Shown: in pieces, positions 13,838 to 48,074 of the stretch
Layout of the letters: every line of letters starts with the position of its first letter
How positions within the stretch are numbered: position 1 is the stretch's first letter
DNA from: a virus
Direction: 5' to 3' (one strand)
DNA length: 48,329 nt
IMG/VR virus record: IMGVR_UViG_3300031711_000005
Location: 1 to 48,329 of that record
Position numbers and translations under genes: made by a program
The notes under the pieces: model-generated
Told to the model about the DNA's origin: nothing
What the model saw: only the letters and a program-made list of their open reading frames with translations
Database searches by the model: none

Positions 13838-14442
13838 CAGGCTTTAGCCTCCGCGCTTTCCTGCGCTTTTGCCTGCGCCGCGGCTCGCAGTATGGCCAAT
13901 AGCTCCCTTTCATCGTCGCTAATGGGATCGGCCTTACCGCGCATTTCTCGCCAGCAGATTGAATCCCACATTAGCTCGTGGATTGGCGTATCCATGACTT
14001 TCTCCGGGCTCATATGCATCTCGGTCACGGCCCAGACCTTAAGGCATTGGATATAGGGCGACTTGAGCGCTCGAGCCTTGCCAGATCCCTCCCAAAGCTC
14101 GGGCAGCTTATAGCTCGCACAGAGCCATGCGGAAAACCGCAGACATGACTCAAGGCTTCGGTCGAAATTGCCAACGTGGAATCGCTTTCCGAGCCTTCGG
14201 ATCCACCATCGCCCCCGCCAACTCCGCAGAAGCCGCCAGGCTTCCGCCGCGGGCCGGCTGCATATCAGCAGTGCCATGGCCAGGTCTCCGCGCATCGGGT
14301 CGGCAGCCTGCGCGCAAACGAACGGACTCTTGATCCTCTCCAAGATCAGGGCATGCCCGTAGGTGAATGCAATCAACTGAACGCCGCAAATCCTCGGGGG
14401 ATCAGCGAGGCACGAACCTGCGTATGTCGCGGCGTCCAGCAC
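13837..14442 (-). CDS. Putative tail assembly chaperone, 201 aa
   Basis: The gene lies between tail tube and tape measure, where tailed phages encode the tail assembly chaperone that coats the tape measure before tube polymerisation. The C-terminal half is helical (HMSPEKVMDTPIHELMWDS then ERELLAILRAAAQ), as in those proteins. The frame opens with GTG; an internal Met (MRGDLAMALLICSR) is an alternative start, because the first 45 residues are Cys-rich and atypical. I see no obvious slippery heptamer for a -1 frameshift product. Confidence 0.55.
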   Translation of the reverse strand: MLDAATYAGSCLADPPRICGVQLIAFTYGHALILERIKSPFVCAQAADPMRGDLAMALLICSRPAAEAWRLLRSWRGRWWIRRLGKRFHVGNFDRSLESCLRFSAWLCASYKLPELWEGSGKARALKSPYIQCLKVWAVTEMHMSPEKVMDTPIHELMWDSICWREMRGKADPISDDERELLAILRAAAQAKAQESAEAKA

Positions 14443-14454
14443 GGGAGGTCAGGC

Positions 14455-14904
14455 TCAGGTTACAGCCGCAGTAAGGTTGGCCGCCGTCTGATGGCTGAAC
14501 TTCACCAATGGCAATGTCATCTTCGCCTCACCGGTCGGCGATCGAAGGATCTGGCCTCCCTGCTCATAAACCCAATCTCCGTTCAGGTCCGTTTCGTCAA
14601 AGTTCGCCAGTGTGACCTTGGTGCATTCGTTGGGGAGCTGGAGCGCCTTCAGCGCGTCATCCCCTGCGCCCGGCGTAGCGGCCGAGACCATGTAACAGTC
14701 GATCGTGATCGCCTTGTGCTTGTTTCGAAGCGCGTATCCTTGCACCTCGCCGTTGCCATCGGTTCTTCGGGAGATGTCGGCGCCTCCAGTTACCGTGTGA
14801 CCTTGCACTTCGAGTTTCGCCGCTGCGTCTAGCGCGGGGGATACGAGCGTAACCAAGGCCGTGAGTTCCACGCCTTGCACCGTTGCTTTGCCTGTTTCGA
14901 TCAT
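14455..14904 (-). CDS. Putative major tail (tube) protein, 149 aa
   Basis: This beta-rich protein has a Gly/Thr-rich N-terminal half (ETGKATVQGVELTALV), a central block DCYMVSAATPGAGDDALKAL and the element DLNGDWVYEQ. Size, composition and position before the chaperone and tape measure genes suit a tail tube subunit. It forms the tube that conducts DNA. No specific family motif is recognised, so the call is mainly positional. Confidence 0.55.
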   Translation of the reverse strand: MIETGKATVQGVELTALVTLVSPALDAAAKLEVQGHTVTGGADISRRTDGNGEVQGYALRNKHKAITIDCYMVSAATPGAGDDALKALQLPNECTKVTLANFDETDLNGDWVYEQGGQILRSPTGEAKMTLPLVKFSHQTAANLTAAVT

Positions 14905-14941
14905 AATTTGAGAGGGTTAAGAATTGTCGGTTTCAGTGAAA

Positions 14942-15409
14942 TCATTGGGACGCCACGTGCATGCGCGTGGAGAGCACCATCTCGCGAATAATGTATCCAG
15001 CGTCAGTTTTTCCGATTGCCGCGAAAGAAACCAACCGAAAGGGATACCACCATTCCGAGGCCCTCCAGCCGCTCGAGACCAGGAGAGCGACCGCCAACAT
15101 TGCGCTCTGCTGCGCCGTCTTGGTCATTGGAGTTTTAACCGACCGGTTTTCTCCAAACATCAGCGAGACCTTTGCACCTGCGAATCGCACATTGTCAGTG
15201 CCCTCGAGTGTTGGCTCCTGGACCTCCACGCCACAACTGCACCGTATGACGCTGAGCCTGAGTTCCTCCTCTGGATTGCCCCGCTCCTGCATCACAACGG
15301 CCACGCCCAGGCCGGGCTTGTCGGCGTTCACAAACCACGGATCGCTCACCAGGCGCGCGATGATCCGCTCCTGCAAATCGGTCAACAAATTGAAGGGGAA
15401 ATCGGCCAT
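14942..15409 (-). CDS. Putative tail terminator / head-tail joining protein, 155 aa
   Basis: The protein begins MADFPFNLLTDLQERIIARL and contains alternating beta strands (AVVMQERG, VRFAGAKVSLMFGENRSV). This pattern fits the tail terminator fold: one long N-terminal helix followed by a sheet, as in tail-completion proteins. It is the gene before the tail tube, the standard place for this function. No catalytic motif is present. The stop-start spacing to the connector gene upstream is 3 bp. Confidence 0.5.
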   Translation of the reverse strand: MADFPFNLLTDLQERIIARLVSDPWFVNADKPGLGVAVVMQERGNPEEELRLSVIRCSCGVEVQEPTLEGTDNVRFAGAKVSLMFGENRSVKTPMTKTAQQSAMLAVALLVSSGWRASEWWYPFRLVSFAAIGKTDAGYIIREMVLSTRMHVASQ

Positions 15410-15412
15410 GGG

Positions 15413-15808
15413 CTAAATACAGATCTTTCGGTCGCCACCCCAGCCAACTCTGGACGGCGGAGTTGCGGTCGGGTCCACGTCCACTCCTTTGAGGCCCTTC
15501 AGACGGTCCAGGGCTGCGCGTGCGGCGTCTTTACGGGCATCCGTGGCCGAGACGCCTACCCGGTTTTCAATCCGCGCCACGGTCAAATCCACCGCCTCGG
15601 TCAACAGCGACTCAGGGATCGTCCCTTTAGGTCCGATTGTCACTACGCGCTGCGCATAGGACCGAATCTGCTCAGTCACCTGCGTGATCGTGGGCGCGAC
15701 CGGATCCGCCTGCCCGGCCGCCAGCGCCAGGGCCCGCCATTGATCCAGCTCCGCTCCGCTTACGGCTGTCAGCAAATCCGCCTCAGTCAATTGTCGCCAG
15801 GTGATCAT
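15413..15808 (-). CDS. Head-tail connector protein, Mu gp36-like (DUF1320-type), 131 aa
   Basis: The short helical protein opens with ITWRQLTEADLLTAVSGAELD. This matches the start of gp36/DUF1320-like connector subunits of Mu-type phages (a 'tw..lt..dl...' helix, then helices covering the ring surface). The product would form a connector ring under the portal. The C-terminus is basic and Pro/Gly-rich. It directly follows the tail fibre gene, separated by 2 bp, an unusual neighbour for a connector. Confidence 0.55.
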   Translation of the reverse strand: MITWRQLTEADLLTAVSGAELDQWRALALAAGQADPVAPTITQVTEQIRSYAQRVVTIGPKGTIPESLLTEAVDLTVARIENRVGVSATDARKDAARAALDRLKGLKGVDVDPTATPPSRVGWGGDRKICI

Positions 15809-15810
15809 GG

Positions 15811-18800
15811 TTAAGGGTCCCTCTCCACGTAGACCAGCTTGAGGTTTAGCGCCCTGACAGCCGAAGTAAGCGTAGTGACAGATGCGAACTGACCTAGTAG
15901 GCCAAGGGAAGCAACCTTCGTCGTGTTGGTCGCGACGGCGGTCCCGTCAATGAGCCCGACAAGGCTCGACCCAGCGTTGTAGTCCAGTTCCCAGTGGTGA
16001 AAGCTGGTATCCGGTGTGATCCCGGTATCTGTCACAGATGGCCCGCTTCCGTCGTCAGAAACAAGCTTCCATTTGGTATCCGAAGCCCCCGTCGAGTAGC
16101 GAAACGCCATACAAGAACGGCTCGATCCATCTGCGCCCGCTTGGGTTCCCGGAAAATCCGTGACCCCTAGCCAAACCCGCTCGCTCGTGGTGTTGGTTAG
16201 GGCCCCCCACCAATGGATTTTGAAGCTCTTTGTCTGAGGCAGATTTACGTTACTCTCGTAAATATAAGCCTGATTTCCGCTAGTTGACCCCGTTCGATAG
16301 GCCCTATAGCCACCTTCCGTCGAAGTCGGCGCAACTACCCCGGTAGTGCCGCTGTCACCAAACGTTGATGCTGGCACTAGGGTCCAAGCGTTGGCGGGGT
16401 TGTACTCGGCAAACCAAACGACTCGACCTCCAAGGTTAGATCCACCAGAGCTACCACCCGAAGCACTAACCGTGTAAGTCGTGACGCCGGCGACCGTATT
16501 GCTCGACACCGAGGTGCCCCCACCGTTCGCCACGATGGTATTTACCGCCATGTTCGCGGCCGGAACCGTACCCGATGCGATGGCGCTTCCGTTCAGCCCA
16601 AAAAGATTGCTCCCAGGCCCAGAAAATCCCCCAACGCTGTAAATCATGTTTGGAGCGTAGAGCGCCTGATTCGCGCTCGGGAATCGCAACCACTGGCTGG
16701 CCACTGCCTGACCTAGAGCCAACTGGCCATTGTCGCTCAAATGCAGGCCGTAATCCGTCGGCGCGGCGGCATACAGAAACCACCAGGTGTTTGTGCTAGG
16801 AACAGCAATGTCGTTGTCCACCAGCATCAGCCAAGACGTGTTCTTTGCTGCTTCCTTGCGGATCAAGTCATTCAGCAAAGCCCTCGTGGCTTCCTGCGGA
16901 GCGCTCAGCTTGGCCGAATCCTGAATCGTAAACCCGATCACCGGGTAATAATTGGTCTGATGCGCCAGCCACCACATGTTGGTAAGGCCCTTAACCCAGA
17001 GATTGGTGTCGATGGTATCAAACAAAAGGTCATTGATGCCGAACATCAGAGCACAGGCTGCATTGGTCCCTGGAACTAACGACGGGGCATAATTCGTGAA
17101 GTAACGCGAGCCCGACCCATAGACCCCATAGAACGAATTCGACACGTCGGCCAGGTGATAGCTCGATTGCGCGTAATCGATCAGTGTCAGGTTGGTGAAG
17201 AACGAATTGTTGACCAGGTAGTAACACCAGCTATGGCTAGCGCCCGTCGGGGCCTCTTGCGTGAGTGAGTCGCCGTAGGTCACCAGCGCGGTGGGTTTCG
17301 CAAAAAAGAACGGGTAATTGTTCAGCGTCGCTGGCCCCACCAAACTGGTCGCTGCACCGCCACCGCCTCCGCCGCTGATCGCCACGCTCGAAACTGCCGT
17401 TGCCCGGCCCTTGGCATCCAGGGTGATCTGCGGAACGTGCGTCGAATCTCCGTAGGTGCCAGCCGATACACCGCTGGTCCCAAGCGTCGGATTCGGATAA
17501 GTCCCAGTTAAATCTCCTCCAGCGGTCCCAGTCGCCCCTGGGAACGTGATCGCCACGCTCGAAGCCGAGGTTGCGCGTCCTTTTGCATCCAAGGTCACCT
17601 GCGACACGTGGGTAGCGTCTCCGTAGCTGCCGGCCGTAACACCGCTCGTGCCAAGCGTTGGGTTGGGATAAGTCCCGGTCAAATCACCACCAGCGGTCCC
17701 AGTCGCCCCTGGGAACGTGATCGCCACGCTCGAAGCCGAGGTTGCGCGTCCTTTAGCATCCAAGGTCACCTGCGACACGTGGGTAGCGTCTCCGTAGCTG
17801 CCGGCCGTAACACCGCTCGTGCCCAGCGTGGGATTGGGATATGTCCCGGTCAAATCACCGCCAGCGCTGCCGCCAGGCGCGGTCCCGCTGATCGCGATGC
17901 TCGATACTCCCGTCGCTCGGCCTTTTGCGTCCAGCGTCACCTGCGGCACATGCGTCGCGTCGCCGTAGGTCCCGGCCGTCACGCCGCTGGTCCCTAGCGT
18001 TGGATTCGGATAAGTGCCCGTCAAATCCCCGCCAGCGCTGCCACCAGGCGCTGTCCCACTGATAGCGATACTCGATACTCCCGTCGCCCGGCCCTTTGCG
18101 TCCAGCGTCACCTGCGGCACGTGCGTCGCGTCGCCGTAGGTCCCGGCCGTCACACCGCTCGTGCCGAGCGTCGGGTTCGGATAACTCCCGATAAGATCTC
18201 CCCCTGCTGATCCGCCTGGGAATGTTCCGGTGATTGCGACGGAACTGGCGCCGGTCACTTGCCCTTTGGCGTTAACGGTAACCTGCGCGGCGTGCGTCGC
18301 ATCGCCATAAGTCCCAATGCTCGCATTCACATTGGTCAGCGTGGGATTCGGATAGGTTCCTGCCAGATCTCCACCAGCCGGCCCGCTCGGAGTGCCGCCT
18401 CCGCCCCCTCCGCCGCCACCGGCATGCTCCAATCCGTCTCCGCCGATCACCTTTGTCGAATCCCCGTCCAGCGCCAGCGCATTTGTGACAACGCTAAAGG
18501 TCGGAAACGCGGAGTCTCCAGGCTTGTAGCCGCCGAGGATCGCCAGATTAGTGACCGAGAGCCACAGGTTGGTGTTGGCAACGCTGGCCAGCCGATAGAC
18601 CGTCACCCCTCCCATGTCAAATGTTGTAATCGCCGTAGCCTGCGCCGTACCAGACAGCGTCAGGGTCGCGCTGGCACTGTTGGATTGCCAGTGACTGCCA
18701 TCAGTAGACCGGTCGAAAAGGGCCACCAAGGTCCCGCTGTTGGTTCCCCCGCCTCCGGCGAACTGGGCCGTGATCGAGATGGACAGCATTCGGGAGGTTC

Positions 18801-18942
18801 CGTAAACGCCGCTCGCCGCATAGCTGTTTGTCGATGCCGCCGCCACATTGTTCGTCCCACCGTTCAGGTAGACGAATTGAGCCCAGCCGACCTGGCAAAT
18901 GGTCAGCGCCGAAAGGGCCAAAAGGACGCGTAACGGTTTCAT
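15811..18942 (-). CDS. Tail fibre/spike with signal peptide, six 57-aa repeats, SGNH hydrolase and lectin-like domain, 1043 aa
   Basis: Residues 1-22 form a typical Sec signal peptide ([19 protein letters not shown], then WAQ). Six repeats with the core [21 protein letters not shown] and [10 protein letters not shown] follow; this repeat is common in phage and prophage tail fibres. After a Gly run comes an SGNH/GDSL hydrolase domain with YGDSLTQ (near 556), GIND (near 634) and [10 protein letters not shown] (near 730), so the serine, Asn, Asp and His of the family are visible. The last 190 residues resemble a LamG/concanavalin-type jelly roll. It likely binds and deacylates a surface glycan. 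The ATG overlaps the stop of the upstream SGNH gene (TAATG), so the two are coupled and this start is preferred over one seven codons earlier. Confidence 0.8.
17360..18390 (-). repeat. Six tandem ~171-bp repeats inside the fibre gene
   Basis: Six consecutive units of about 171 bp encode the 57-residue [13 protein letters not shown] repeat. Neighbouring pairs (units 2-3 and 4-5 counted from the N-terminus) are nearly identical at protein level and very similar in DNA, with variants such as THVPQ/THVSQ and [18 protein letters not shown]. This points to recent unequal recombination or gene conversion that changes fibre length. Confidence 0.85.
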
Positions 18943-19949
18943 TATTTCAAAGCGGATATCCATCCGCCAACAGGCATTTGCACCGCGCTGGTAATAAACG
19001 TGTTATCCCCGGTGAGCGCGGAATAGAGCCCGTTGGTGATCATTTCATGCATGAGCACATTTGGGTGTTGATCGTTTCCCCATGCCGTGGTCGCGCCCGT
19101 CGAGTCTCCAACCACGCCCGAAGCCACAAGCGATTTTAGGTATGCGTGCAGATCAAAGAATGGCACGCCTTGGGCATTCGCTGCCGCGAGTTGGGCGGCC
19201 CGAACCGGGCCATAATTCGAGTAATCCGCCGAAAGCGTGTCGCCGAGACCATTCGCGAAGTTCAGCCAATGGGCCGACATGACTAGGATTCTTTGGCATC
19301 CCTGCGTTGGGTCCGCGTTGTCGGCGATTCGACTCCAACCTGATGGCCCTGCCTGTGCATTTCGATAGATCCAGATCCTTGGCGCGGGAGAACCTGACAG
19401 ATCTCCGGTGACCGTTGGCAGATTGGGGGGCGATCCGATATTGTATCCCCCGGTGCCTGAGTTATCCGCCTGAACCAGGTATCGAGACTCGTTTGGTATC
19501 AGAGGCTTAAAACCATAGGTTTGATAGGCGGGAAGATTTGCCGGAGCCGCAACTACTCCGGAGACTCCGTTCCGAATTGCCCGGATAATCTGTTCAATCT
19601 GGCTCTGCGTCTGGGCCTGTGAATATGTGCCAGGATCATTCACCCCGATCATGAGGGTGCATGCTGTTGGAACTTCAAACACCGTGCCTCTTTGGCCCTG
19701 GCTCGATATGACCATCAGTTGCTGTGGGATGATTGAGAGTAGATCCTGGGTTTTAAAACCGGCATGCCCGCAATTTCTGGCGATGCAATTCGCCCCGGCT
19801 GCCCGAAGCCTGGCTGACACTTTAGCCGGGTACATATCGCTGACCATCACTCCAAGCGTATATGCCATCGTGATTGAGTCCCCGAAACAATAGATCGTGG
19901 CCCCTCTCGGTGATTTCGTGAACGCGGTTTGAATCGCTGAGGATGACAT
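18942..19949 (-). CDS. SGNH/GDSL hydrolase family protein, 335 aa
   Basis: The product has the four blocks of SGNH hydrolases: GDSIT (Ser25 the nucleophile), NCGHAG (Gly61 for the oxyanion hole), GVND (Asn104) and NDQHPN (Asp293 and His295 completing the triad). The family cleaves ester bonds, often acetyl groups on glycans. There is no signal peptide. It sits in the receptor-interaction cassette of the phage operon, translationally coupled to the fibre that has its own SGNH domain. A tail-borne glycan esterase is the most likely role. Confidence 0.8.
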
Positions 19950-19953
19950 AACT

Positions 19954-20838
19954 TTAGCAGATGAAACTGGGCGTCACGTTTACGGCGCCACTGATGCTCG
20001 CTTTGATGCTCAAATGGCCGGAAGTCGCCCCGACTAATCCCTGCACTGGAAGCGGCCATGTGTCGTTTGCGGGGATGTCATGCTGGAAGACGATCAAGGA
20101 GCCCGTTACGTCTTGGCCGTAGACGGTGACCGTGCCAGATGACGTGTTCACGAATAACAGCCCAATTAATGCCCGACCTAGGTTAAATGGAGTGGCCCAG
20201 ATTGACGTCAGCGCCTGATAAGAAGCCGTGAGTGTCTTGGGCAACGCGGAAGATGGAACATGCGGCATTTCCTCGTAGCCGGCGTTACGGTCGACCACCA
20301 GGCCCCAGATCCGATGATCCGATGCCACAGACGGAATTGCCGAGGCTTCTATCCTGACCGCGTGCTCGGTGTCCGACAGTCCAGTAACGACGAACGCTGA
20401 TTCTATGCCGAAATTGGTGATTGTCGCCCCATTCTCCAAAAAACGTTTTCGCAGCACTCTGTATGCTACGCCGTCGATGATTAGGTCGAAGTCCGGATAA
20501 GCCCCGCCACCGGAATTGTTCATGGTCGGGTCGTACCGAACCCCAACCACCGTGCCCCTGACCTTAGTCTGGATACTGAATTCGCTGCTCGATGATCCCG
20601 CGGGCATAGCCGGAATCGTTCCCGAAAAGCAACATGATCCGGACCCATCGGGGTTCCCTAGCCCAAGGTATCCATCGTAGAACGTGAACCCGCTGGTCGT
20701 AATCGAATCCTTTCGAAACGGATAACTGACAAGATTATTACGGGCATTGACCCTTATGTGCCCCTGTTCTGTGCCATCATCCACCCAGGCTTTTGCAAAA
20801 CTGGAATCGGGAGGCGGTGAAAATAGATCGTTGCTCAT
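19954..20838 (-). CDS. Putative tail surface protein, 294 aa
   Basis: This beta-rich protein (MSNDLFSPPPDSSFAKAW start) contains two apparent jelly-roll or Ig-like parts, with strands such as VRGTVVGVRYDP, DFDLIIDGVAYRVL and ALIGLLFVNTSSGTVTVYGQD. Similar low-specificity beta proteins are common as phage tail appendages. It is 4 bp upstream of the SGNH hydrolase gene and probably acts with it. No catalytic residues are recognised. Confidence 0.55.
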   Translation of the reverse strand: MSNDLFSPPPDSSFAKAWVDDGTEQGHIRVNARNNLVSYPFRKDSITTSGFTFYDGYLGLGNPDGSGSCCFSGTIPAMPAGSSSSEFSIQTKVRGTVVGVRYDPTMNNSGGGAYPDFDLIIDGVAYRVLRKRFLENGATITNFGIESAFVVTGLSDTEHAVRIEASAIPSVASDHRIWGLVVDRNAGYEEMPHVPSSALPKTLTASYQALTSIWATPFNLGRALIGLLFVNTSSGTVTVYGQDVTGSLIVFQHDIPANDTWPLPVQGLVGATSGHLSIKASISGAVNVTPSFIC

Positions 20839-20842
20839 AACC

Positions 20843-21499
20843 TTAGCTCGTTGTTACCCTCAAATCTGTCACTCCAACTGGATTGCCGTTCGCGTCTCTC
20901 GTGAAAGCATCTTGGACCACTGTCTTCCCGGAATTTGCGTGGCTCAATGTGTATCCGTTCACCAGCCCAAATGTGGCGTCTTTTGCGGTCCTGGTGTAAA
21001 CTCCCGCCGAATCGTCCGCCCACTGGATGGTCGCGCTCGATATCGTTTGGTCCGGGTCACGCGTAGGCGAACCGATGATTTGGTACCCGCCCTCCATCGC
21101 CCATTCAAGCAACTGCTGGTCCGTCGCGCCATTAGGAGGCGTAGGCGTCGGTCCGCCCGTCTGGCTCACTGCCGGAGTTACCATGAATACGCCCGAACGA
21201 GGCCGATATCTGACATCATCACCCTCGCGGTATAGGAGCAAATCGTAAAGGTAGCGCTCGTTCACAGTGAGACCAGCCGAGTGCCTCCAGCTCAGTGAGC
21301 AGGCCAGGTTCCCATCGGCGCCCATGGAAATCCCAGCGTCATTTACAATCTCGATCAGGACGTTGCCCGAGCTATCGAGCACCTGAAACACTGCTGACCA
21401 GCCGGTCAAATCCACTGGCGCACCATCCGTCGTAATCGATTCCGACCAGGAATAAGTGGCTCCCTGGGGAAACACAATGTCTCGTGACTGGTAATCCAT
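20843..21499 (-). CDS. Putative tail/baseplate appendage protein with Ig-like N-terminus, 218 aa
   Basis: Residues 1-100 read like the Ig-like N-terminal domain found in BppU-type baseplate proteins: FPQGATYSWSESITTDGAPVDLTGWSAVF, then strands with RYLYDLLLYREGDDVRYRPRSGVFMV. A Pro/Gly linker and a second domain (SSATIQWADDSAGVYTRT) follow. The domain in BppU-type proteins anchors receptor-binding proteins to the virion. That role fits its place just ahead of the surface-protein cassette. The similarity is by pattern only. Confidence 0.5.
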   Translation of the reverse strand: MDYQSRDIVFPQGATYSWSESITTDGAPVDLTGWSAVFQVLDSSGNVLIEIVNDAGISMGADGNLACSLSWRHSAGLTVNERYLYDLLLYREGDDVRYRPRSGVFMVTPAVSQTGGPTPTPPNGATDQQLLEWAMEGGYQIIGSPTRDPDQTISSATIQWADDSAGVYTRTAKDATFGLVNGYTLSHANSGKTVVQDAFTRDANGNPVGVTDLRVTTS

Positions 21500-21583
21500 C
21501 TCGCGTCGTTTTAAGTTGCCCCGCCGGGCTGCAACGGACCGGGCGAGGCGTTTTGGGGGTGAACCAACACGTGACCCAAAGCC

Positions 21584-37344: not shown

Positions 37345-37367
37345 GAGCATACCAAGGTGGCATGCTC
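37345..37367. promoter_or_regulatory. Inverted repeat upstream of recA, possible LexA-type operator
   Basis: GAGCAT-N11-ATGCTC is centred about 43 bp before the recA ATG. Palindromes at this place in recA promoters are usually LexA boxes, whose sequence differs between phyla. No good match to the gamma-proteobacterial or Gram-positive box is present, so the assignment is tentative. Confidence 0.4.
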
Positions 37368-37398
37368 AGCTGCGTTTCTGGCCATACAGAATTTCACC

Positions 37399-38498
37399 AT
37401 GGCAACAAAACGCAAATCCCGCTCCCTCCGACCCACCTTCCAGCCAAAACGCGCTGGAATGTGCTCTCAGTACCATTACCAAGACCTACGGATCGGGCAG
37501 TATCATGCGCCTGGGCGAGGCTCAGGGCGTGGCCCCCGTGCCGACCATCTCGTCGGGATCCATCTCCCTGGACTGCGCCTTGGGGGGTGGGCGGGATCCC
37601 GCGCGGGCGAATTGTCGAAATCTACGGGCCCGAATCATCGGGTAAAACCACCTTGATCCTTCACACCATCGCCAATGAGCAAAAGGCCGGTGGTGTGGCA
37701 GCGTTCATTGACGCCGAGCACGCGCTGCTCGCCAATTACGCCAAGCGCCTGGGGGTCAATCTTGACGAGCTCCTGGTCTCCCAGCCTAGCAATGGGGAGG
37801 AGGCACTCTCCATCGTGGAGATTCTTGCCAAGTCCGGCGCTGTGGACATCATCGTGGTGGATTCAGTGGCGGCCTTGACGCCAAAAGCTGAGATCGAGGG
37901 CGAAGTCGGAATGGCGACAATGGGTATGCAGGCGCGGTTAATGAGCCAGGCGCTACGCAAGCTCACGGCAGTACTTCACAAGAGCAACACCCTCTGCTTC
38001 TTCTCCAATCAACTCCGCGAGAAGGTCGGCGTCATGTTCGGAAATCCGGAAACCACCCCCGGAGGCAAGGCCTTGAAGTTCTACGCAAGTGTCCGCCTGG
38101 ATATTCGGCGCAAAGACACCCTTAAAGATGCCAAGGGTAATCCCATCGGCAACCACGTCCGGGTTAAGGTCGTTAAGAACAAGGTGGCACCTCCCTTTGC
38201 CGAAGCCGAATTCGACATCCTTTTTGGCAGCGGCATTGACTACTTCGCCGACCTCCTGGACACCGCCACGGAACTGAACGTTATCAGCAAGAAAGGAGGT
38301 TGGTACCAATACAATGGGCAATGGGTGGGACAAGGACGCGACGCCGCAGCCAAAGCCCTGGCTGGCAATGTTGAACTGGCGCAGAAGATCAAGGATTCGC
38401 TGCCAACGCGGCGGGCAACAGCACCAGCTGAGTTACCAGAGATCCCGGACATGCCGGTCGCTGCGCCGTATGAACAGGCTATGCCGGCGGCCGCATAA
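37399..38498 (+). pseudogene. recA: recA, recombinase A, with two single-base insertions
   Basis: The start MATKRKS is followed, in another frame, by [20 protein letters not shown] and [16 protein letters not shown], then in a third step by the P-loop [11 protein letters not shown] and the rest of RecA to the end. The product forms the strand-exchange filament and triggers LexA/CI cleavage. Frame changes fit one extra A in the run at 37446-37449 and one extra C at 37592; removing both restores a continuous protein. The remainder is well conserved ([47 protein letters not shown]), though FFSNQ replaces the usual FINQ. Either a fresh pseudogene or base-calling errors. Confidence 0.88.
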
Positions 38499-38629
38499 TT
38501 TTGGCGTGACACTTAGTCAGCGGGCATTACAACATAGAAATAACTCTTGAGGTACGCCCGCAATGAGTTATACGTTTGGAATGAGATGAAAATCTCGCCT
38601 TCCTAAACCGATCCGCACCTCCGGATCCA

Positions 38630-38653
38630 GGGGACTCTTTCTTCGGAGTCCCC
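38630..38653 (+). terminator. Terminator hairpin downstream of recA
   Basis: GGGGACTC and GAGTCCCC form a perfect 8-bp stem with an 8-nt loop (TTTCTTCG), followed by TGCTTCATTTT. It is 130 bp past the recA stop and 79 bp ahead of the next small gene. The tail is only partly T-rich, so efficiency is uncertain. Confidence 0.6.
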
Positions 38654-38731
38654 TGCTTCATTTTGGGCCCCAGTCGTTTGCCTTTTTGGGTCAGCGTCCT
38701 ATACTGGAAATGTGGCCAAAATGGCCAACAA

Positions 38732-38965: not shown

Positions 38966-41900
38966 ATGAAAACGTCATTCCTTACGCGCAGACATGGGTT
39001 TACCCTGGTAGAGGTGGTTGGCATAACTGCCGTCGTCGTCGTCATGGGAGTGACAGTCCTGATGAAAATGGGCAACACTCGCGATCGAGCGATGGATGCG
39101 GAGGCGGCGTCTGATGCCCATCAACTCCAGCTAGCCTTTGACCGCGCGGTCATGAACCAGGTCAACATCCTTACCAACGATTCCATAGCCAGCTTTGCGG
39201 ATGCCGCCTACCGAGCCTCACTCATTACCAAGGTTCCAGAGACGACGTCACTTTCCCGAATCCACCTGGCGGAGGGCACCCATATCACCAACCAGACTGC
39301 CATGTTTGTGACCGTCACGAATGCTTCGATCGCCCTGCCTCCTCCGCAGGTTACGCTTGTCACTCCCGCGCCAGCCGGCAAGTACTACGCAGGAGTTCCG
39401 GTCAACCTGATGGCTACGGTCTCTTCGATGGATACGATCATGGAGGTGACGTTTTACAGCGACGGCGCCGCCATCGCTGGTGCCGTCGTGACACCATACT
39501 CGGGAACCTACCGCTTCGATGCGGGAACTCATACCATCCAAGCAACAGCCCGCACTGCTGGGGGTCTTTCGGGGTCGGCCACCGCAACCATCACTGTGTT
39601 ACCGAACACTCCTCCCGTTGTGCAGCTGAACGAGCCGGCGGCAGGGAGCTACCCGTATACAACACCGCTCTCCTTACGGGCTACCGCCTCGGATCCTGAT
39701 CCAGACGGACAAATCACCCGCCTGGAAATCTTTGCCGGAACCAATTCATTGGGATCCACCAGCGGCAGTAGCTACTCCTCGACGTGGCGTGGATCTCCCG
39801 GTGTTTATCAAATCGCGGCCCGAGCTACCGATAACGCCAGCAGTTTGACTACGACCGATCCCGTACAGGTCACTTTAATTCCCAATACGCCACCTACGGT
39901 GACCTTGACCAGCCCCGCAGATGGACAACATTTCCTTACCCCCACCACTGTTCCATTCCGGGTGACGGCGGTCGCTGATGGAGGACCGGTGAAGTCAGTG
40001 GTCTACACGGTCAACGGAACCACTCAGGCAACGATTACGAAATACCCGTTCGGCTACGACTGGGAATCCCTTGTTCCAAGCACATACAGCATCCGAGCCA
40101 CAGCCTTCGACAATGCGGGCGTGCAAGGCAACTCTGCGACGGTAAACGTCACCGTCAGCCAGGATACTCCCCCGGAAATTAGGCTCCTATCTCCCGCCAA
40201 CAACCAGGTCTTCTCTTCGGTGGATAACGTGCTTCTCAGCGCGACCGCCACGGATGCGGATGATGCCGTCACTAACGTTTTCTTTTACGCCAACAACCAA
40301 CTTGTGACCGCTTTAACCGCAGGGCCTTACCAATTCAATTGGAAGCCGGTGGCGGGCAGCTATAACGTCTTTGCTGTAGCTACCGACGGGCACAATGCCT
40401 CGACCAGAACGGCTACCAACCATATCACTGTATCGGGGGACAAACCCCCCACCGTCGTCATTACTTACCCGGCCAACAACGCCACGTTTGATACTCGAAC
40501 CGCCCTCACCGTCACCGCTAACGCTTCGGATCCCGACGATGGTGTCGCTTATGTCAACTTCCTGGTGAACGGTATCGTGATGAAATCCGTCACCCAAGCT
40601 CCGTACCAGTTTAGTTGGGTCGATCCCATCATCGGCACATACCAGCTCCAAGCCGTTGCCTATGACAACTCGATGATTTCGACCAAGAGCGATGCGGTCA
40701 CGGTCTTTATCAATCAGAACATACCTCCCAGCATTTCCCTGAACTCGCCTAGCGCAGGTCGATCGTTTATCGCACCTGAAGCGATTACGATCCAAGCCAC
40801 TGCATCCGATGCGGATGGAAGCGTCTCGAACGTGCAATTACAGGTCGTCGGGGTAGTGACGAACACATTGACTACGAAGCCCTACTCGATGGTGTGGAAC
40901 GTGACGAACCCAGGAAATTATACCATCGCGGCGGTCGCAACAGATGATAAGGGAGCCAGCAGCACCGCCTCGGCAGACATCACCGTCAATCCGAACCAGC
41001 TTCCCACCGTGACTCTGGTGACTCCCAGTGATGGCGCCCAATTCACCACCCCGGTGGCTGTGACCATTCAAGCGATTGCCAGCGATCCAGATGGAAGTAT
41101 TACCCGCGTCGATCTCCAGGACAGCAAGACCAACTTCACCAGTTTGTCCCGCTCCCCTTACAGTTTTTCCTGGAATGCGCCCGCTGGAGGACACCTGCTG
41201 CGGGCGGTTGCTTACGACGACAAGGGAGGATCTACAGCAACCCCCGAGGTCGGTATTCTGGTGCTCAACAGCTCCAACCAGGCACCTACCGTGACGCTGA
41301 CAAGTCCTGCCAACGGGGCTACTTACGCGCTGGGCAATCCGGTCTTGTTATCGGGCACCGCATCCGATTCTGATGGCAGCATCGCCCACGTAGACTTCAT
41401 GGCCAATGGGACGGTGGTCGGCTCCCTGTCTTCGGCCCCTTACAGTTACAGCTGGACCGGAGCTGCCTACGGGAGCTACCGCATCCAGGCGGTCGCATAC
41501 GACAATAATGGCGCCTCTACAGCATCGAGCTCAGCGCAAGTGCAAGTGGGCATCAACCAGACGCCCACGATCTCATGGGTGGCTCCAACCGATGGCTACT
41601 CCTTCATCGCCCCGGCAGACATTCCGTTTCGGGTCAGTGCCGCAGATGCAGATGACGGAGTCAAATCGGTCACGTATTCGGACAGTCTCTCGGCTGAAAC
41701 CCACACGGTCTCACAGTCCCCCTTCGCCTACACGTGGAAAGGGATGCCCGCCGGGGACCACACGATAACCGCCACGGTGTCCGATACACGCGGAGCCACC
41801 GCTGCCGCCTCGCTTCACGTGAGTGGCACGGAGGAACAATTACCGACGGTCTCCATCAGCGCACCCAAGAACGGGGATGTCTACACTCGAGACGAGAATA

Positions 41901-44900
41901 TTTCGGTCACGGTGGCCGCGGCCTCAAGCCAGCCAGGCAACGCGGTGAGCAGGATCGAGGTTTACGTGGGAGCCACGCTCATTTTCGCAACCAATCAAGC
42001 TTCCGCCCAGTTTACCTGGAGCACGAACGCGAGCGGCAGCTATTCGATTAACGCCAAGGCCTACGACAGTTTGGGCGGGGCGACTCAATCCAGCCCGGTC
42101 GGAATTCAGATCTACGGACCAGCTGCCCCCACAGTGAGCTGGACCAGTCCGCACTCCGGAGACAACCTGACCAATGCCAGCACGGTTAGCGTCGCCTTAG
42201 ATATTGATGACGTAAACTTTGGAGCAACCATAGACCGGATCGATCTCTATCAGGACGGCGCCAAAATCTTGTCGACCAACAGTCCGCTGTTTGATTTTAC
42301 CGCACCGACCAACGGGACTCACTCCTTCGTCGCCAGCGTGGCCGATAGTTACGGCATGACCGGAAACAGCACGACGCTATCGCTTTCGTTCTGGGCCCTC
42401 GCCGCCGGCGACCTGTTGCCGCCCACGGTCAGCATCAGCAGTCCGGCCAACGCGTATACCTTCCCTAGCAGCCAATCCATCGGCATTACCGCCAATGCAT
42501 CGGTGGCTGGCGGCACCATCGCGCACGTCGATTTTCTGGCGAACTCAAACTCCATCGGTTCAGTCAGCTCCTCTCCCTACAGTCTGACCTGGAAACCGTT
42601 GGCGTCGGGCGACTACATCTTGCAGGCAACAGCCTACACCGGAGCCGGCCAATCGGCCACATCCAAGGGGGTCAAAGTAACCGCTCTCGACAATGACCTG
42701 CCGGCAGTTTCTCTTACGCAGCCAGTGGATCAAACCGCCATCGTAGGCCCGGCAAACCTGTCGTTGGGTGCTTACGCTACCGACAATCAAGGAGTTTCGC
42801 GCGTCGACTTCAAGGCCAACAACAACATTGTCGCCTCGATTGCCAACGGAGTTAACGGAATCTATACGGCCGTCTGGACAAATTGTGATGTTGGAGACTA
42901 CGGGGTTCAGGCCATCGCCTACGATATCTATAACGCCGCACAATCCACCGTGCCGATCACCATCCACGTCAGTCAAAACCGGCCACCGACGATCAGCTTT
43001 CAATCCCCCAGCAACGGAACCACTTTCCTGACACCGGGCTCGGTGCAAATCAGCCTCAATGCAGCCGATCCGGATGGCGGGGTCGCCTCGGTAACCGTCC
43101 TCACCAACGGCACCACTTTCAAAACGCTTACAGACGCCCCCTACGTTTACAACTGGAACAACCCTCCCGCCGGGGACTACGCGCTAACGGCATACGCTAC
43201 GGATACCCTGGGTCTGAGCAGCACACCGGTTTCCAGCACCATTCACGCCCTCGCCGCTGTAAATCCAACCGTAGCATGGCAGTCGCCCTCAGCCGGCACC
43301 TACCAGTGGAACAACCAGTTCACGCTGCATGCCGTCCCGAGCGACCCTCAAGGGTTCGCATCGCAAAGCTCACTGCGCGTCTATTACTTTGACAACGGCA
43401 CCAATACCATCGGATCTGTAGCTGGCGTCGGGTCTGATAACAACTTCACGATCAGCCCTTACCAGTTGGATCCGGGGGTTCACATCTTAACGGCCAGGAC
43501 CACGAACACGCTCAGCGGACTGGCGGGGTCATCGTCCGTTACCGTTACGGTCCAATCGAACAGCCCGCCGACGATCACGTTGACGCCGACAAATAACGCC
43601 ACCATTTCGCCCGGAGCTACCGTGCTGACGGCCACCACAGCCGATCCCGACGGAGATGCCATTCAAGTCGTTTACTATCTCGATAGCACCAGCGTAGCCA
43701 CCAATTTTGCCGGCCCCTACAACACCACGGTGAATATGTCGATCGGCACTCACACCATTTGGGCGTCCGCCTCGAGCTCGGGTTACGCTGTTCCTAGCAC
43801 CACCAACACCATCGTTGTCGCGCACACCCCGCCGTCGATCGTCATCGCGTCTCCCGCGAGCGGGAGTACATTCGTGTCCAACGCTCCGGTTCTGCTGAGC
43901 GTGAGCGCGCAAGCCTACGATGGTTACACGATTGCGAACATCGACCACTATCTGGATGGAACAAAACTCGGCTCCTATCCCAATGTCAGCGGCATAACCA
44001 ACACCGCCCCCTGGACTGGGTCGATCGGGAGCCACACCTATAAAGAAGTCGCCATCGACAGCCACGGCACCGCTGGCACCAACTCCGTCACGTTCACGAT
44101 CAGCCCTTACACCGCTCCGCTCGTCAGCCTGGTCCCGACCAACGGCACGTTGGTTTCCACCGGCGCCTGCACGATCACAGCGACAGCTACCGACCAAGTA
44201 GGACAGAGCATCGCGGCCATGTCCCTCTGGCTCGATGGGACCAAGGTCTCGACCAACTCCAGCAGCCCATTAACCTACAGCGCCAACCTGACGGCTGGCA
44301 CACACACGATCTACGCCAGCGCATCAGATGTCAGCGGAACCGGCTATAGCTCTACCAATACGATCAATGCGCAAGCCCTGATTGCGCCAGTCGTCAACTT
44401 CACCAACTACAACGGCTTCGCCGTGCGCAGCAGTGTTACCCAGGACGGCATGCCACTGATCGCGGTGGCTACAAGCGCCGTTCGAACCATCTCCAGCGTT
44501 AAGTTCTACGACAACGGAAGCTTGTTGGGGAGCGGCTCGACGTCAGTGTTCACAAACGCCAATTATTACGCACTCAACTGGCAGAATGCATCCGTTGGGA
44601 CCCACCCGATCAGCGTGATCGCCACGGACAACCTTGGCCTGACCACTACAAACAATCTCAACGTCACGGTGAATGCGGGTTACAGTGATACCACCGGCAT
44701 GCCCGTCGGCAGCCCGACTGGCAACACGGTCTGGAACTACTACATCTGCCCAATCCAATCTTCTACGCCAGCTTCCTCGAAGAGTCCACTCCTCTGGCTG
44801 TCTGACTCGGGTGTATGGAAGTATGCCTATTCCTCGGCGTATCCATGCCCGCAAACGACCCTGAGCGGCTCCCTGTATCCGGGCGACGTGAGCATTGGTG

Positions 44901-46777
44901 ACGCGCTCGTGAGCTTTACGGCGCCCAGCACCGGAACGCTCACCGTCAACGGCAACTCCAACCTCAACGGATCAGGAACTTCGGACGGAGTTCAATTCCG
45001 GTTCTTGAATGGGAACACGCAAGTCTGGCCAAGCAGCGGCTGGCAAAACCTCAACAACAACTCGAGCCTCTACGTCAACGCCTCCTTCAGCGTGACGGCA
45101 GGAAACATCATCTACCTCCAGGTCAACTGCAAGACCGGCAACGCTTATGATTGGTTCTCGTTCCCATTCCAATTCTTCTACGCCAGCGGTTCGGCCAGCG
45201 CCCCAACTGTCACGATTGGCAATTGGCAGAACGGCGATACGACGGTGGCCGGCTACGGCACCAATATCGCAGTAACCGCTACCGATTCTAATCAAGGGGG
45301 GACAATCACCGCCCTCACCACCAAAGTGGACGGAACGACTCTCAGCACCGTCGTAGGTGCATCGACCACCGTGTCCTGGACGCCAGCGGCAGGCAGCCAC
45401 ACCATCCAAGCCATCGCCTTGAACAACTTCGGGCAGGCTGCCACCAATACGGTGACGATCACAGCCGCGTCGGCATCGGGATCCGTCGCAGTTCCCTGCA
45501 GTGGAGGAACAATCTCCGTTCCTGGTTCAGCATCCCTCGTGGCCACGGTAAATCCTCCGGCAGCGTGGGATCCGGTTAGCGCCGTGACCTTCTACATCGA
45601 TGGCACCGCAGTCGGGGGATCGAGCACTAAACAGGGGGACGGGTCTTACGCGACTACCTGGACCACGGCATCAGGCAGTCACACCATATACGCTAAACTG
45701 GTGGATACTTTGGGCCTTGCTAGCTACACCCCAACCAATTCATTCACCGTTTCCTACAGCGACGCCTACAACATCGGACTGCTCGGAGAGGGTGGGACCG
45801 CGACCGATGCCGTAGCCTTTGACGGAAACGCGGGCACCAGCCTGACCGCGCCCTTTTCGATTACCGAAAATCGCATCTGGCTACGATCGCGCAACGTGTA
45901 TGAGCTCGATTTCTGGGCCGCAGGCGGCAACCAGGTTGGCTACAAAACGTCCACCGACGGAGTGACCTGGTCCTCAATGGTCTACCCCACATATACAGCC
46001 AATCCTATCTCCGTAAAGTTCGCCACCCCGCAAAGCCTCAAGGGAGTTCAGTTTTATGTTGGCGGCCCCAGCGGGAACGTAACGTTTGCCGAAGGGAAAA
46101 TCTACAGCGATGTGATCAATGCGCCACCGAACGTTTCAATTACCTCACCGGTTACCGGGACCTCGTATTCCACGCCTGGCGTCACAACGATAACACCGCA
46201 AGTTGACGCGGGCACCGGCGATTCCGGCGATTACATCACCAAAAGCGAGCTCCTGGTCGATGGCGCCGTGGTGGCCACGTCAGGTTCCTCACCGTGGACA
46301 CTGTCGTATACGATTCAGCAGGGCACGCACAACGTGCAGGTTCGAGCAACTGACTCTTACGGAAAGCAGGCCGTCAGTTCCGCGATCAGCCTAGTCGGCA
46401 ACTGGACACCAACATCCAGCGCTAACCTGGCGTTGTCCACATCTGCCGCGGGGGGCACCTATACGCCCAGCATTTGCTTCGACGGGAATTTCTCGACCAG
46501 CTCAAGTGCTCAATACGGAGTCACGGCCACCCGAATCTGGCCGGCGTCACACACGGTCTACAGCATCGCATTCCAGGCATATGCCGGCGCTTACGTGAAT
46601 CTGCAATACACGGTGAATGGTTCTACCTGGGTGGATTTCTTCTTCTGGAACTCCTCCTACAATGGAACATACACCTACACGCTGGCTTCGCCCACTTCGA
46701 TACGCGGAGTGCGCCTCGACCTGGGTAGCAACAGCGGAAGTCCCAGCATAGGCGATCTGGTGGTTTACGGTCAGTAG
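38966..46777 (+). CDS. Giant prepilin-type protein with about 22 Ig-like repeats and two discoidin-like domains, 2603 aa
   Basis: The N-terminus has the type IV prepilin/pseudopilin signal MKTSFLTRRHG, cleaved before FTLVE (Glu at mature +5), and a hydrophobic helix to about residue 35. From about 125 to 1900, nineteen Ig-like units of 85-100 residues follow, each opening like PPTVTLTSPADG and closing like YDNNGAS. A separate beta domain (about 1905-2075), two more Ig units, a discoidin-like domain (about 2266-2383), another Ig unit and a second discoidin-like domain (about 2480-2603) complete it. Such ends bind glycans. Signal processing would need a prepilin peptidase and type II/IV machinery. 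A very long surface stalk or adhesin displayed from a pilus-like system is the likely role. Confidence 0.85.
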   Translation: MKTSFLTRRHGFTLVEVVGITAVVVVMGVTVLMKMGNTRDRAMDAEAASDAHQLQLAFDRAVMNQVNILTNDSIASFADAAYRASLITKVPETTSLSRIHLAEGTHITNQTAMFVTVTNASIALPPPQVTLVTPAPAGKYYAGVPVNLMATVSSMDTIMEVTFYSDGAAIAGAVVTPYSGTYRFDAGTHTIQATARTAGGLSGSATATITVLPNTPPVVQLNEPAAGSYPYTTPLSLRATASDPDPDGQITRLEIFAGTNSLGSTSGSSYSSTWRGSPGVYQIAARATDNASSLTTTDPVQVTLIPNTPPTVTLTSPADGQHFLTPTTVPFRVTAVADGGPVKSVVYTVNGTTQATITKYPFGYDWESLVPSTYSIRATAFDNAGVQGNSATVNVTVSQDTPPEIRLLSPANNQVFSSVDNVLLSATATDADDAVTNVFFYANNQLVTALTAGPYQFNWKPVAGSYNVFAVATDGHNASTRTATNHITVSGDKPPTVVITYPANNATFDTRTALTVTANASDPDDGVAYVNFLVNGIVMKSVTQAPYQFSWVDPIIGTYQLQAVAYDNSMISTKSDAVTVFINQNIPPSISLNSPSAGRSFIAPEAITIQATASDADGSVSNVQLQVVGVVTNTLTTKPYSMVWNVTNPGNYTIAAVATDDKGASSTASADITVNPNQLPTVTLVTPSDGAQFTTPVAVTIQAIASDPDGSITRVDLQDSKTNFTSLSRSPYSFSWNAPAGGHLLRAVAYDDKGGSTATPEVGILVLNSSNQAPTVTLTSPANGATYALGNPVLLSGTASDSDGSIAHVDFMANGTVVGSLSSAPYSYSWTGAAYGSYRIQAVAYDNNGASTASSSAQVQVGINQTPTISWVAPTDGYSFIAPADIPFRVSAADADDGVKSVTYSDSLSAETHTVSQSPFAYTWKGMPAGDHTITATVSDTRGATAAASLHVSGTEEQLPTVSISAPKNGDVYTRDENISVTVAAASSQPGNAVSRIEVYVGATLIFATNQASAQFTWSTNASGSYSINAKAYDSLGGATQSSPVGIQIYGPAAPTVSWTSPHSGDNLTNASTVSVALDIDDVNFGATIDRIDLYQDGAKILSTNSPLFDFTAPTNGTHSFVASVADSYGMTGNSTTLSLSFWALAAGDLLPPTVSISSPANAYTFPSSQSIGITANASVAGGTIAHVDFLANSNSIGSVSSSPYSLTWKPLASGDYILQATAYTGAGQSATSKGVKVTALDNDLPAVSLTQPVDQTAIVGPANLSLGAYATDNQGVSRVDFKANNNIVASIANGVNGIYTAVWTNCDVGDYGVQAIAYDIYNAAQSTVPITIHVSQNRPPTISFQSPSNGTTFLTPGSVQISLNAADPDGGVASVTVLTNGTTFKTLTDAPYVYNWNNPPAGDYALTAYATDTLGLSSTPVSSTIHALAAVNPTVAWQSPSAGTYQWNNQFTLHAVPSDPQGFASQSSLRVYYFDNGTNTIGSVAGVGSDNNFTISPYQLDPGVHILTARTTNTLSGLAGSSSVTVTVQSNSPPTITLTPTNNATISPGATVLTATTADPDGDAIQVVYYLDSTSVATNFAGPYNTTVNMSIGTHTIWASASSSGYAVPSTTNTIVVAHTPPSIVIASPASGSTFVSNAPVLLSVSAQAYDGYTIANIDHYLDGTKLGSYPNVSGITNTAPWTGSIGSHTYKEVAIDSHGTAGTNSVTFTISPYTAPLVSLVPTNGTLVSTGACTITATATDQVGQSIAAMSLWLDGTKVSTNSSSPLTYSANLTAGTHTIYASASDVSGTGYSSTNTINAQALIAPVVNFTNYNGFAVRSSVTQDGMPLIAVATSAVRTISSVKFYDNGSLLGSGSTSVFTNANYYALNWQNASVGTHPISVIATDNLGLTTTNNLNVTVNAGYSDTTGMPVGSPTGNTVWNYYICPIQSSTPASSKSPLLWLSDSGVWKYAYSSAYPCPQTTLSGSLYPGDVSIGDALVSFTAPSTGTLTVNGNSNLNGSGTSDGVQFRFLNGNTQVWPSSGWQNLNNNSSLYVNASFSVTAGNIIYLQVNCKTGNAYDWFSFPFQFFYASGSASAPTVTIGNWQNGDTTVAGYGTNIAVTATDSNQGGTITALTTKVDGTTLSTVVGASTTVSWTPAAGSHTIQAIALNNFGQAATNTVTITAASASGSVAVPCSGGTISVPGSASLVATVNPPAAWDPVSAVTFYIDGTAVGGSSTKQGDGSYATTWTTASGSHTIYAKLVDTLGLASYTPTNSFTVSYSDAYNIGLLGEGGTATDAVAFDGNAGTSLTAPFSITENRIWLRSRNVYELDFWAAGGNQVGYKTSTDGVTWSSMVYPTYTANPISVKFATPQSLKGVQFYVGGPSGNVTFAEGKIYSDVINAPPNVSITSPVTGTSYSTPGVTTITPQVDAGTGDSGDYITKSELLVDGAVVATSGSSPWTLSYTIQQGTHNVQVRATDSYGKQAVSSAISLVGNWTPTSSANLALSTSAAGGTYTPSICFDGNFSTSSSAQYGVTATRIWPASHTVYSIAFQAYAGAYVNLQYTVNGSTWVDFFFWNSSYNGTYTYTLASPTSIRGVRLDLGSNSGSPSIGDLVVYGQ

Positions 46778-46861: not shown

Positions 46862-48074
46862 ATGCAAAATCCTCTTTGCTGTGCAATCTTGGCAGGCCTC
46901 TTGGGTTCGTGTTTGCATACTCAGCTGGCGGCGGACGAACAGAGCTTTAGCGGCACCAACCTTGCCGGCGCGTACCAGGTGTTTCCCGTGACGTTGGTTG
47001 CAGGGACTAGCAATCTGTCGATCCAACTCGATGGCAACTCTACCAATTACGGACTGCTCTACCTGGCAGCAGGCAGGACCCCTACGTCAACCAATTACGA
47101 TTATCGAGCGGTCGCTCCAGCCACCAATACGATCAATCTGGAGCTGCCTGAGTTGCTCAGCACTAATTACGAGGTGCGGGTACGGGCACCCGCCACGGTC
47201 CGAACACAGCTGTTCACGCTGCACATCGCGACGGACATCGCTGATTTGGGATCAAGCGCTCACCCTATCAACAAGGAGGTGGTTTCCACCAGCTACGGGG
47301 CAGCCACCGAAACTCCATCCTGGCATTACTATCGGATTGATGTCTCCTCCAACCTGCCGCCGTGGCGCGCGGTGACATTCAACCTCGACGACACCAATGC
47401 CCCGGCGCCCGATCTTTACCTAGGCAAGGGTCAGATTCCCACCTTTTCGAGTTATGTTGCGCGTGCCAAGGGCAGCAATCCCAACACATTGTTCCGACCT
47501 AGCCAAACCCTCACCAACGGCACCTGGTATCTTGGTGTATACGGCACCAGCGCATTTTCATTGGCTACCGAGTACGCCTCAATACGGAGGATGGAGGACC
47601 GTGCTCAAGGTAGTCGACGGCGAGGGGGATCTTTACTTGCGGAAAGGGGACCTGCCCGCACTGGAAACCAATAGTTTCAAGAGCACCTTTCCGGGCTCGG
47701 ACGGGATGGTTCTATCGAGCACCACCTACGTGGTGGGGGATGTTTGGTATTTGCTGGTTCACGCCAGCCCCGGGTCCCATTGGTCCTTGTTCAGCGGAGA
47801 GCCGTTTGTCCAAATCCTTGGCCCAATCTCCACGAATGCGGGAAACCTCGAGTTCACGATCGGGCCCGAACGGATGAGGTTCTTCCAGGCCAGCGTTCCG
47901 GCCGGGACCCTGGCTTGGCGTCTGTATATGAATGGCGCCACCAACCAGATTCTGCTGCGCAAGGGGTGGTTGCCGCTGCTGGGAGCAACCGATGTGCCGC
48001 CCAAGTCCCAGATGTTGGTGGTTCCCGGTTAACTGGCGCCCAACGTCGCCTATTTCCTGGGCTTCGCCGGGTCT
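46862..48074 (+). pseudogene. Secreted PPC-domain protein, broken by a frameshift and a stop
   Basis: A signal peptide (MQNPLCCAILAGLLGSC then AAD) starts the frame. Two PPC-type repeats follow; a typical block is LYLGKGQIPTFSSYVARAKG with TLTNGTWYLGVYG. The first frame goes off after FSLATEYA near 47575. The homologous reading resumes in another frame as TVLKVVDGEGDLYLRKGDLP and runs to a TAA at 48030-48032. Beyond that stop the frame still reads LAPNVAYFLGFAG, which belongs to the family, so at least two lesions exist. PPC domains normally end secreted enzymes; the enzyme part is not in this fragment. Confidence 0.65.

Follow-up and report, generated by a model that had tools for sequence, protein, structure and literature searches.

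A putative giant modular type IV pilin with 22 Ig-like repeats, encoded beside a prophage on a probable Pedosphaerales contig

Pilins and pseudopilins are ordinarily 120 to 250 residues long, a comparison that the original prediction for this locus drew correctly, and the question raised here is what a type IV prepilin leader is doing at the start of an open reading frame of 2603 residues. The frame lies on the plus strand at 38966–46777 of the window (by which we mean the whole stretch of DNA analysed, a 48,329-base IMG/VR record that is classified as viral). It begins with ATG and is open over 7.8 kb, with 43 to 160 stops in each of the other frames. The answer that we favor, and regard as moderately probable, is that it encodes a giant modular type IV pilin, which would be anchored or assembled by its pilin helix and would carry a glycan-binding arm.

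The N-terminus has the layout of a class III (prepilin) leader. The leader itself, MKTSFLTRRHG (38966–38998, plus strand), ends in Gly11, after which prepilin peptidase is predicted to cut. The sequence across the site, MKTSFLTRRHG/FTLVEVVGITAVVVVMGVTVLMK, combines a basic n-region with Gly at -1, Phe at +1, Glu at +5 and a long apolar stretch. A class III signal has Gly or Ala at -1, Phe at +1, Glu at +5 and an apolar stretch of ~21 residues, and all of these are found in HG/FTLVEVVGITAVVVVMGVT; in the core motif, HG/FTLVEV, Glu5 is present and a 14-residue apolar run follows. Among the 407 ORFs of at least 40 amino acids in the window, this is the sole match to the PROSITE PS00409-type pattern [KRHEQSTAG]G[FYLIVM][ST][LT][LIVP]E[LIVMFWSTAG]x14, and a shorter form of the motif appeared in none of 20,000 composition-shuffled N-termini. 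Pfam N_methyl gives the protein 13.8 bits, under the cut-off of 21.2, the GspH profile gives E = 2.4 × 10-5, likewise under its cut-off, and TIGR02532, which like N_methyl is part of the IPR012902 signature, reports nothing.

The predicted leader is borne out by the PS00409-type pattern, by Glu5 and by homology to pilins, but it had been described as a leader only, and a whole pilin module of ~118 residues proved to be present. The module (38999–39319, plus strand, residues 12 to ~118) comprises a long alpha-1 helix and a short, poorly predicted head. Residues 1–96 match an HMM of 22 small Pedosphaerales pilins with E = 3 × 10-8 (for 5,000 proteins), and with E = 0.0014 when the HMM is built without the two pilin pairs first detected with the giant; the same HMM matched none of 88 other Ig-carrying ORFs. 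In the alignment with the 22 small pilins and in the HMM, the homology reaches ~60–85 residues past the leader. The helix has Met in place of Pro22, which is common in small pilins. AlphaFold, supplied with pilin sequences (a mixed pilin-plus-Ig alignment was misaligned and was excluded from folding), predicts one helix at residues 14–68, with block mean pLDDT values of 86–97 for residues 11–60 and 70 for residues 61–70. Past residue ~70, in the head, which in pilins is usually a small globular beta-sheet domain, block means fall to 43–60 and strands are not predicted, and a Foldseek search with the model of the module returned no match. The pilin-like proteins of the "Verru_Chthon cassette" were considered as possible relatives and rejected, TIGR02596 reaching only E = 0.25.

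Small pilins in tandem pairs, at loci L168 (410–1234) and L301 (9652–10485), are closest to the giant's pilin module. The neighbours of the pair at L301 include a VWA-like gene, a large gene of helicase-like type and what may be a sigma-factor gene, and the pair might mark a mobile element.

Beyond the pilin module the protein consists mostly of Ig-like units. The original prediction had counted "about 22", and the number is exactly 22: Pfam Big_7 (PF17957, E = 8.7 × 10-214) finds 22 stretches in the whole protein, and our own iterated repeat HMM also recovers 22 units, 19 in tandem, then two, then one. The 19 tandem units of ~93 residues each form the stalk (39344–44626, residues 127–1887). 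Units 20 and 21 (45203–45703, residues 2080–2246, individually 2080–2152 and 2162–2246) and unit 22 (46127–46351, residues 2388–2462) were placed with the repeat HMM; all lie on the plus strand.

Three further domains, also on the plus strand, interrupt or follow the Ig-like units. Two had been predicted, both as discoidin-like ends; the third, at residues 1903–2078 (44672–45199), had been overlooked. It matches no Pfam family and is probably a beta-sandwich of carbohydrate-binding-like fold. The predicted pair, which we call D1 (45752–46120, residues 2263–2385) and D2 (46397–46774, residues 2478–2603, the C-terminus), are indeed related to each other, and the model of D2 is CBM32-like, but an Ig-like unit separates the two, and D2 scores only 14.1 bits (E = 0.052) against Pfam F5_F8_type_C (PF00754), under the cut-off of 28.2; for that reason we call D2 discoidin-like and do not file it as a member of the family by sequence. 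Structure prediction had been proposed as a check on these domains. The AlphaFold model of D2, made from three sequences, has a mean pLDDT of 61.5, and its top Foldseek match is the CBM32 domain 4a42 of Clostridium perfringens GH89 (E = 8.3 × 10-5); the other best matches are mostly discoidin domains, among them neuropilin b1, lactadherin C2 and factor VIII C2 (E = 8 × 10-5 to 1 × 10-3). A discoidin-type jelly-roll fold for D2 is therefore predicted with moderate confidence. We treat the match as support and not as proof, because confidence in the model is itself moderate and the three sequences behind it include an F5/8C-like glycosidase tail. D1, which has no Pfam match alone, is tied to D2 by 33% identity. 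A D1/D2 profile gave weak matches only, the best being the F5/8C-like tail of a glycosidase, and no relative of D2 was found in 245 genomes.

How might such a protein be used? Prepilin peptidase (A24) and secretins occur in all three related genomes examined; one of these genomes (G082) has a type II secretion operon from GspE to GspK, and a PilT-like ATPase was found in another genome. It is likely, to judge by related genomes only, that the host has pilus or secretion machinery. The protein would be made as a prepilin and inserted into the inner membrane, where prepilin peptidase would cut after Gly11, probably with N-methylation. The alpha-1 helix, with Glu5 kept, could then dock into a type IV pilus or pseudopilus as a minor subunit, probably one close to the tip, or alternatively could hold the giant at the membrane. 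The 22 Ig-like units would extend as an adhesive stalk, ~80–100 nm long if fully stretched, and the CBM32/discoidin-type domains at the far end, together with the third non-Ig domain, would bind polysaccharide or glycans. Cleavage, surface exposure, incorporation into a filament and glycan binding are steps that we infer.

The features that support a giant modular pilin are the leader, the pilin homology, the repeat count, the fold of D2, and the peptidase and secretins of the related genomes. Against it stand the single instance, the N_methyl score under the cut-off, the poor prediction of the head, the lack of Pro22 and the absence of pilus genes from the window. The boldest form of the idea is that the protein is a single-chain harpoon, with an Ig stalk of ~90 nm and glycan-binding ends, which is itself a filament subunit: a diderm bacterium would extrude it through its secretin and display it where a type IV pilus or a type II pseudopilus ends. 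We put this forward tentatively, as a possibility that falls short of an even chance. To our knowledge, passage through a secretin of an arm of ~270 kDa is not known for any pilin this large.

The pilin helix might instead, as the original prediction also allowed, be a membrane anchor and nothing else, cut by prepilin peptidase or left uncut, staying in the inner membrane and never entering a filament. The Ig chain would then span or fill the periplasm, perhaps reaching the surface. The large size of the protein, the missing Pro22, the poorly predicted head and the lack of a pilus gene nearby all agree with an anchor. Glu5, however, which is used in filament docking, has been retained, and the discoidin ends suggest exposure at the surface. 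A plain secretion signal was, moreover, available: of 45 distinct related Ig ORFs in Pedosphaerales genomes whose start can be read, none carries a class III leader, and 44 fit a loose secretory-signal pattern, though a permissive one. We find it doubtful that the helix serves as an anchor only, and equally doubtful that the chain is confined in this way to the periplasm with at most its end at the surface.

The same comparison lends some weight to an ordinary secreted adhesin, in which signal peptidase I would cut the chain and the resemblance of FTLVEV to a prepilin site would be coincidental, inasmuch as secretory signal peptides stand at the start of most giant Ig proteins in the order. 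The position of the AXA-type sites argues otherwise. One lies inside the hydrophobic stretch; the others are found only at residues 45–51, at least 11 residues past the stretch and behind a charged segment. Cleavage by signal peptidase I, which the original prediction had set against its own reading, is on this sequence evidence unlikely, because beyond the hydrophobic stretch the AXA sites occur only there. The extent of the pilin homology past the leader and the failure of shuffled N-termini to reproduce the motif also count against coincidence, and we judge simple secretion to be quite improbable.

A base error in the contig could in principle have run together two separate genes, one for a small pilin and, downstream of it, one for an Ig protein, and two probable single-base errors do lie nearby, in the genes on either side of the giant. 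The junction nonetheless looks sound. The gap between the pilin module and the first Ig-like unit is merely ~8 residues; no start codon with a signal peptide precedes the first Ig-like unit in any frame; no homopolymer of 6 or more bases lies near the junction; and GC3 is continuous across it (0.66 versus 0.63). Given the short gap, the lack of an alternative signal peptide or long homopolymer and the continuous GC3, the fusion is most likely genuine, and an artefact appears very improbable. If the frame were split into two genes, the Ig gene would be left without any export signal.

The setting of the gene bears on whether it is viral at all. Most of the record is a prophage (5397–37286, ~5.4–37.3 kb) with Mu-like head genes: on the minus strand are the portal, major head protein, head protease and terminase genes, followed by an S24-type repressor and a ParB-like gene. 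On either side of the prophage, the IMG/VR "virus" record also takes in several kb that are probably host chromosome. Two observations concern the prophage itself. A minus-strand ORF at 15811–18963 encodes a probable tail-fibre protein of 1050 residues with a lipase/SGNH-like part, in which a 171-base unit (57 residues) is repeated five times in tandem (window 17376–18359). Among the tail genes there is also, by eye, an SGNH/GDSL-like hydrolase (18942–19949, minus strand), perhaps a polysaccharide esterase.

Between the prophage and the giant gene lies recA (37362–38498, plus strand; RecA PF00154, E = 4 × 10-111). It is 73% identical to recA of a Pedosphaera sp. and 70% to that of another Verrucomicrobia MAG, with the remaining matches listed at 58–68%, versus only 50–64% identity to recA of viral contigs. 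Its 5' part is frameshifted by a probable single-base error at ~37585, one G too many in a run of six. A terminator scan found a terminator-like hairpin at 38628–38655; since this separates recA from the giant gene, the latter probably has its own promoter. Downstream, a gene for a secreted PPC-domain protein (46862–48032, plus strand; PF04151, E = 2 × 10-11) begins 84 bases past the giant's stop with no terminator-like site in the gap, and may be co-transcribed with it. The PPC gene is broken by a single-base frameshift (~47400–47500) and ends near the contig end. Both this frameshift and that in recA are likely to be contig errors, or the genes pseudogenes.

That the giant is phage cargo, serving the adjoining prophage as a tail fibre or as an adhesin for lysogenic conversion, is hardly credible: the record is classed as viral and the prophage fills most of it, but the protein matches nothing in PHROG and nothing in 50,697 phage records, scans of viral contigs gave no relative for either the pilin part or the whole protein, and a host-type recA intervenes. 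Because recA is Verrucomicrobiota-like and matches to PHROG and to the phage records are lacking, the giant is best read as a chromosomal gene of the host, apparently a Pedosphaerales bacterium (Verrucomicrobiota), situated outside the prophage. Synteny around recA was not kept in the two nearest genomes, and no ortholog of the giant was gained from it.

Both halves of the putative giant pilin are common in the order, and their union appears rare. Big_7 repeats were matched in 164 of 245 Pedosphaerales genomes and pilins in all 245. Among the pilin matches listed in searches of 293 and 245 genomes, the longest open frame was 728 aa, a length inflated by upstream sequence. The search for a leader in a giant's frame covered the best matches listed and scored the best candidates per genome; rarer giants may exist beyond these. 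A match in genome G208 (query residues 47–323) was examined as a second pilin–Ig fusion and rejected, its ORF (L248) being without a class III leader. The nearest parallel is a protein of G082 (contig C86), which follows much of the giant's C-terminal half at 35–38% identity. It has a copy of the 1903–2078 domain, aligning over the full length, in a region of 38% identity. The contig stops short of the 5' end of this gene, so the N-terminal leader region is absent from the sequence. Contig C84 of the same genome was considered as the missing 5' half and rejected: it encodes a separate Ig giant, also incomplete at its start. No further copy was found in six genomes of the G082 family, and a prepilin-led Ig giant has been seen on one contig only. 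G082 encodes several very large proteins, one of them an open frame of 5,700 residues in which Ig units are scattered (contig C59, ~12900–21500; L325, L328, L330, L336).

Pilins onto which adhesive domains have been grafted are already recognized as a class, the modular pilins (PMC8179133, PMC9934059). An InterPro survey in 2021 counted more than 1,200 such proteins in 264 architectures, the most extreme named having 860 residues and 12 repeats (PMC8179133); larger ones may have entered databases since then. Like the modular type IV pilins, among them the vWA pilin PilB (PMC8179133), the giant has an N-terminal pilin module with non-pilin domains grafted to it: the long alpha-1 helix is there, and the extra C-terminal domains are not filament-specific. 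It differs from the surveyed extreme in scale, at 2603 residues with 22 Ig repeats and three further domains. The closest likeness is to PilC of Streptococcus sanguinis, which also joins a class III leader, a small pilin module, an Ig fold and a C-terminal carbohydrate-binding-type module, binds sialylated and sulfated glycans, and has been placed by modelling, together with PilA and PilB, at the tip of the pilus (PMC9934059). PilC, however, has one Ig unit and a ConA-like lectin where the giant has 22 units and discoidin/CBM32-like domains; it is several-fold smaller, and its host is monoderm, with no outer membrane to cross.

Other known proteins resemble the giant in part. With the giant Big_7 surface proteins of the Pedosphaerales it shares a common Ig repeat family and, in the G082 protein, a co-linear C-terminal half, but its class III leader sets it apart from all those with a readable start. 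Small Pedosphaerales pilins and the pseudopilins GspG and GspH align with its N-terminal module over most of the module's length, but are ~110–145 residues long, lack grafted domains and do not share the change of Pro22 to Met. The PilC/PilY1 tip adhesins of diderm type IV pili are likewise very large adhesive effectors thought to be displayed at the tip; PilY1, unlike the giant, is a non-pilin with a C-terminal beta-propeller (PMC8179133), and no such Pfam match was found in the giant. The original prediction's reading of the protein as an adhesive arm agrees with the sequence architecture, but what it describes is an extreme of the known modular-pilin design and not a new principle.

The giant is plausibly an extreme and apparently rare variant of that design, as far as one contig's sequence can tell, and about three times the size of the largest modular pilin named in the 2021 survey. 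Modular pilins account for the many functions that a single type of filament can acquire, and here the design would be joined to the giant Ig proteins typical of the clade. The protein poses the question of whether pilins that have to pass a secretin are limited in size, or whether proteins of this kind employ the pilin helix as an anchor only. If the giant is a filament subunit, the upper size of pilins would rise about threefold, and the assembly machinery would have to let through a very long string of folded domains. The finding is also relevant to the means by which uncultured Verrucomicrobiota might hold on to polysaccharide some way off from the cell.
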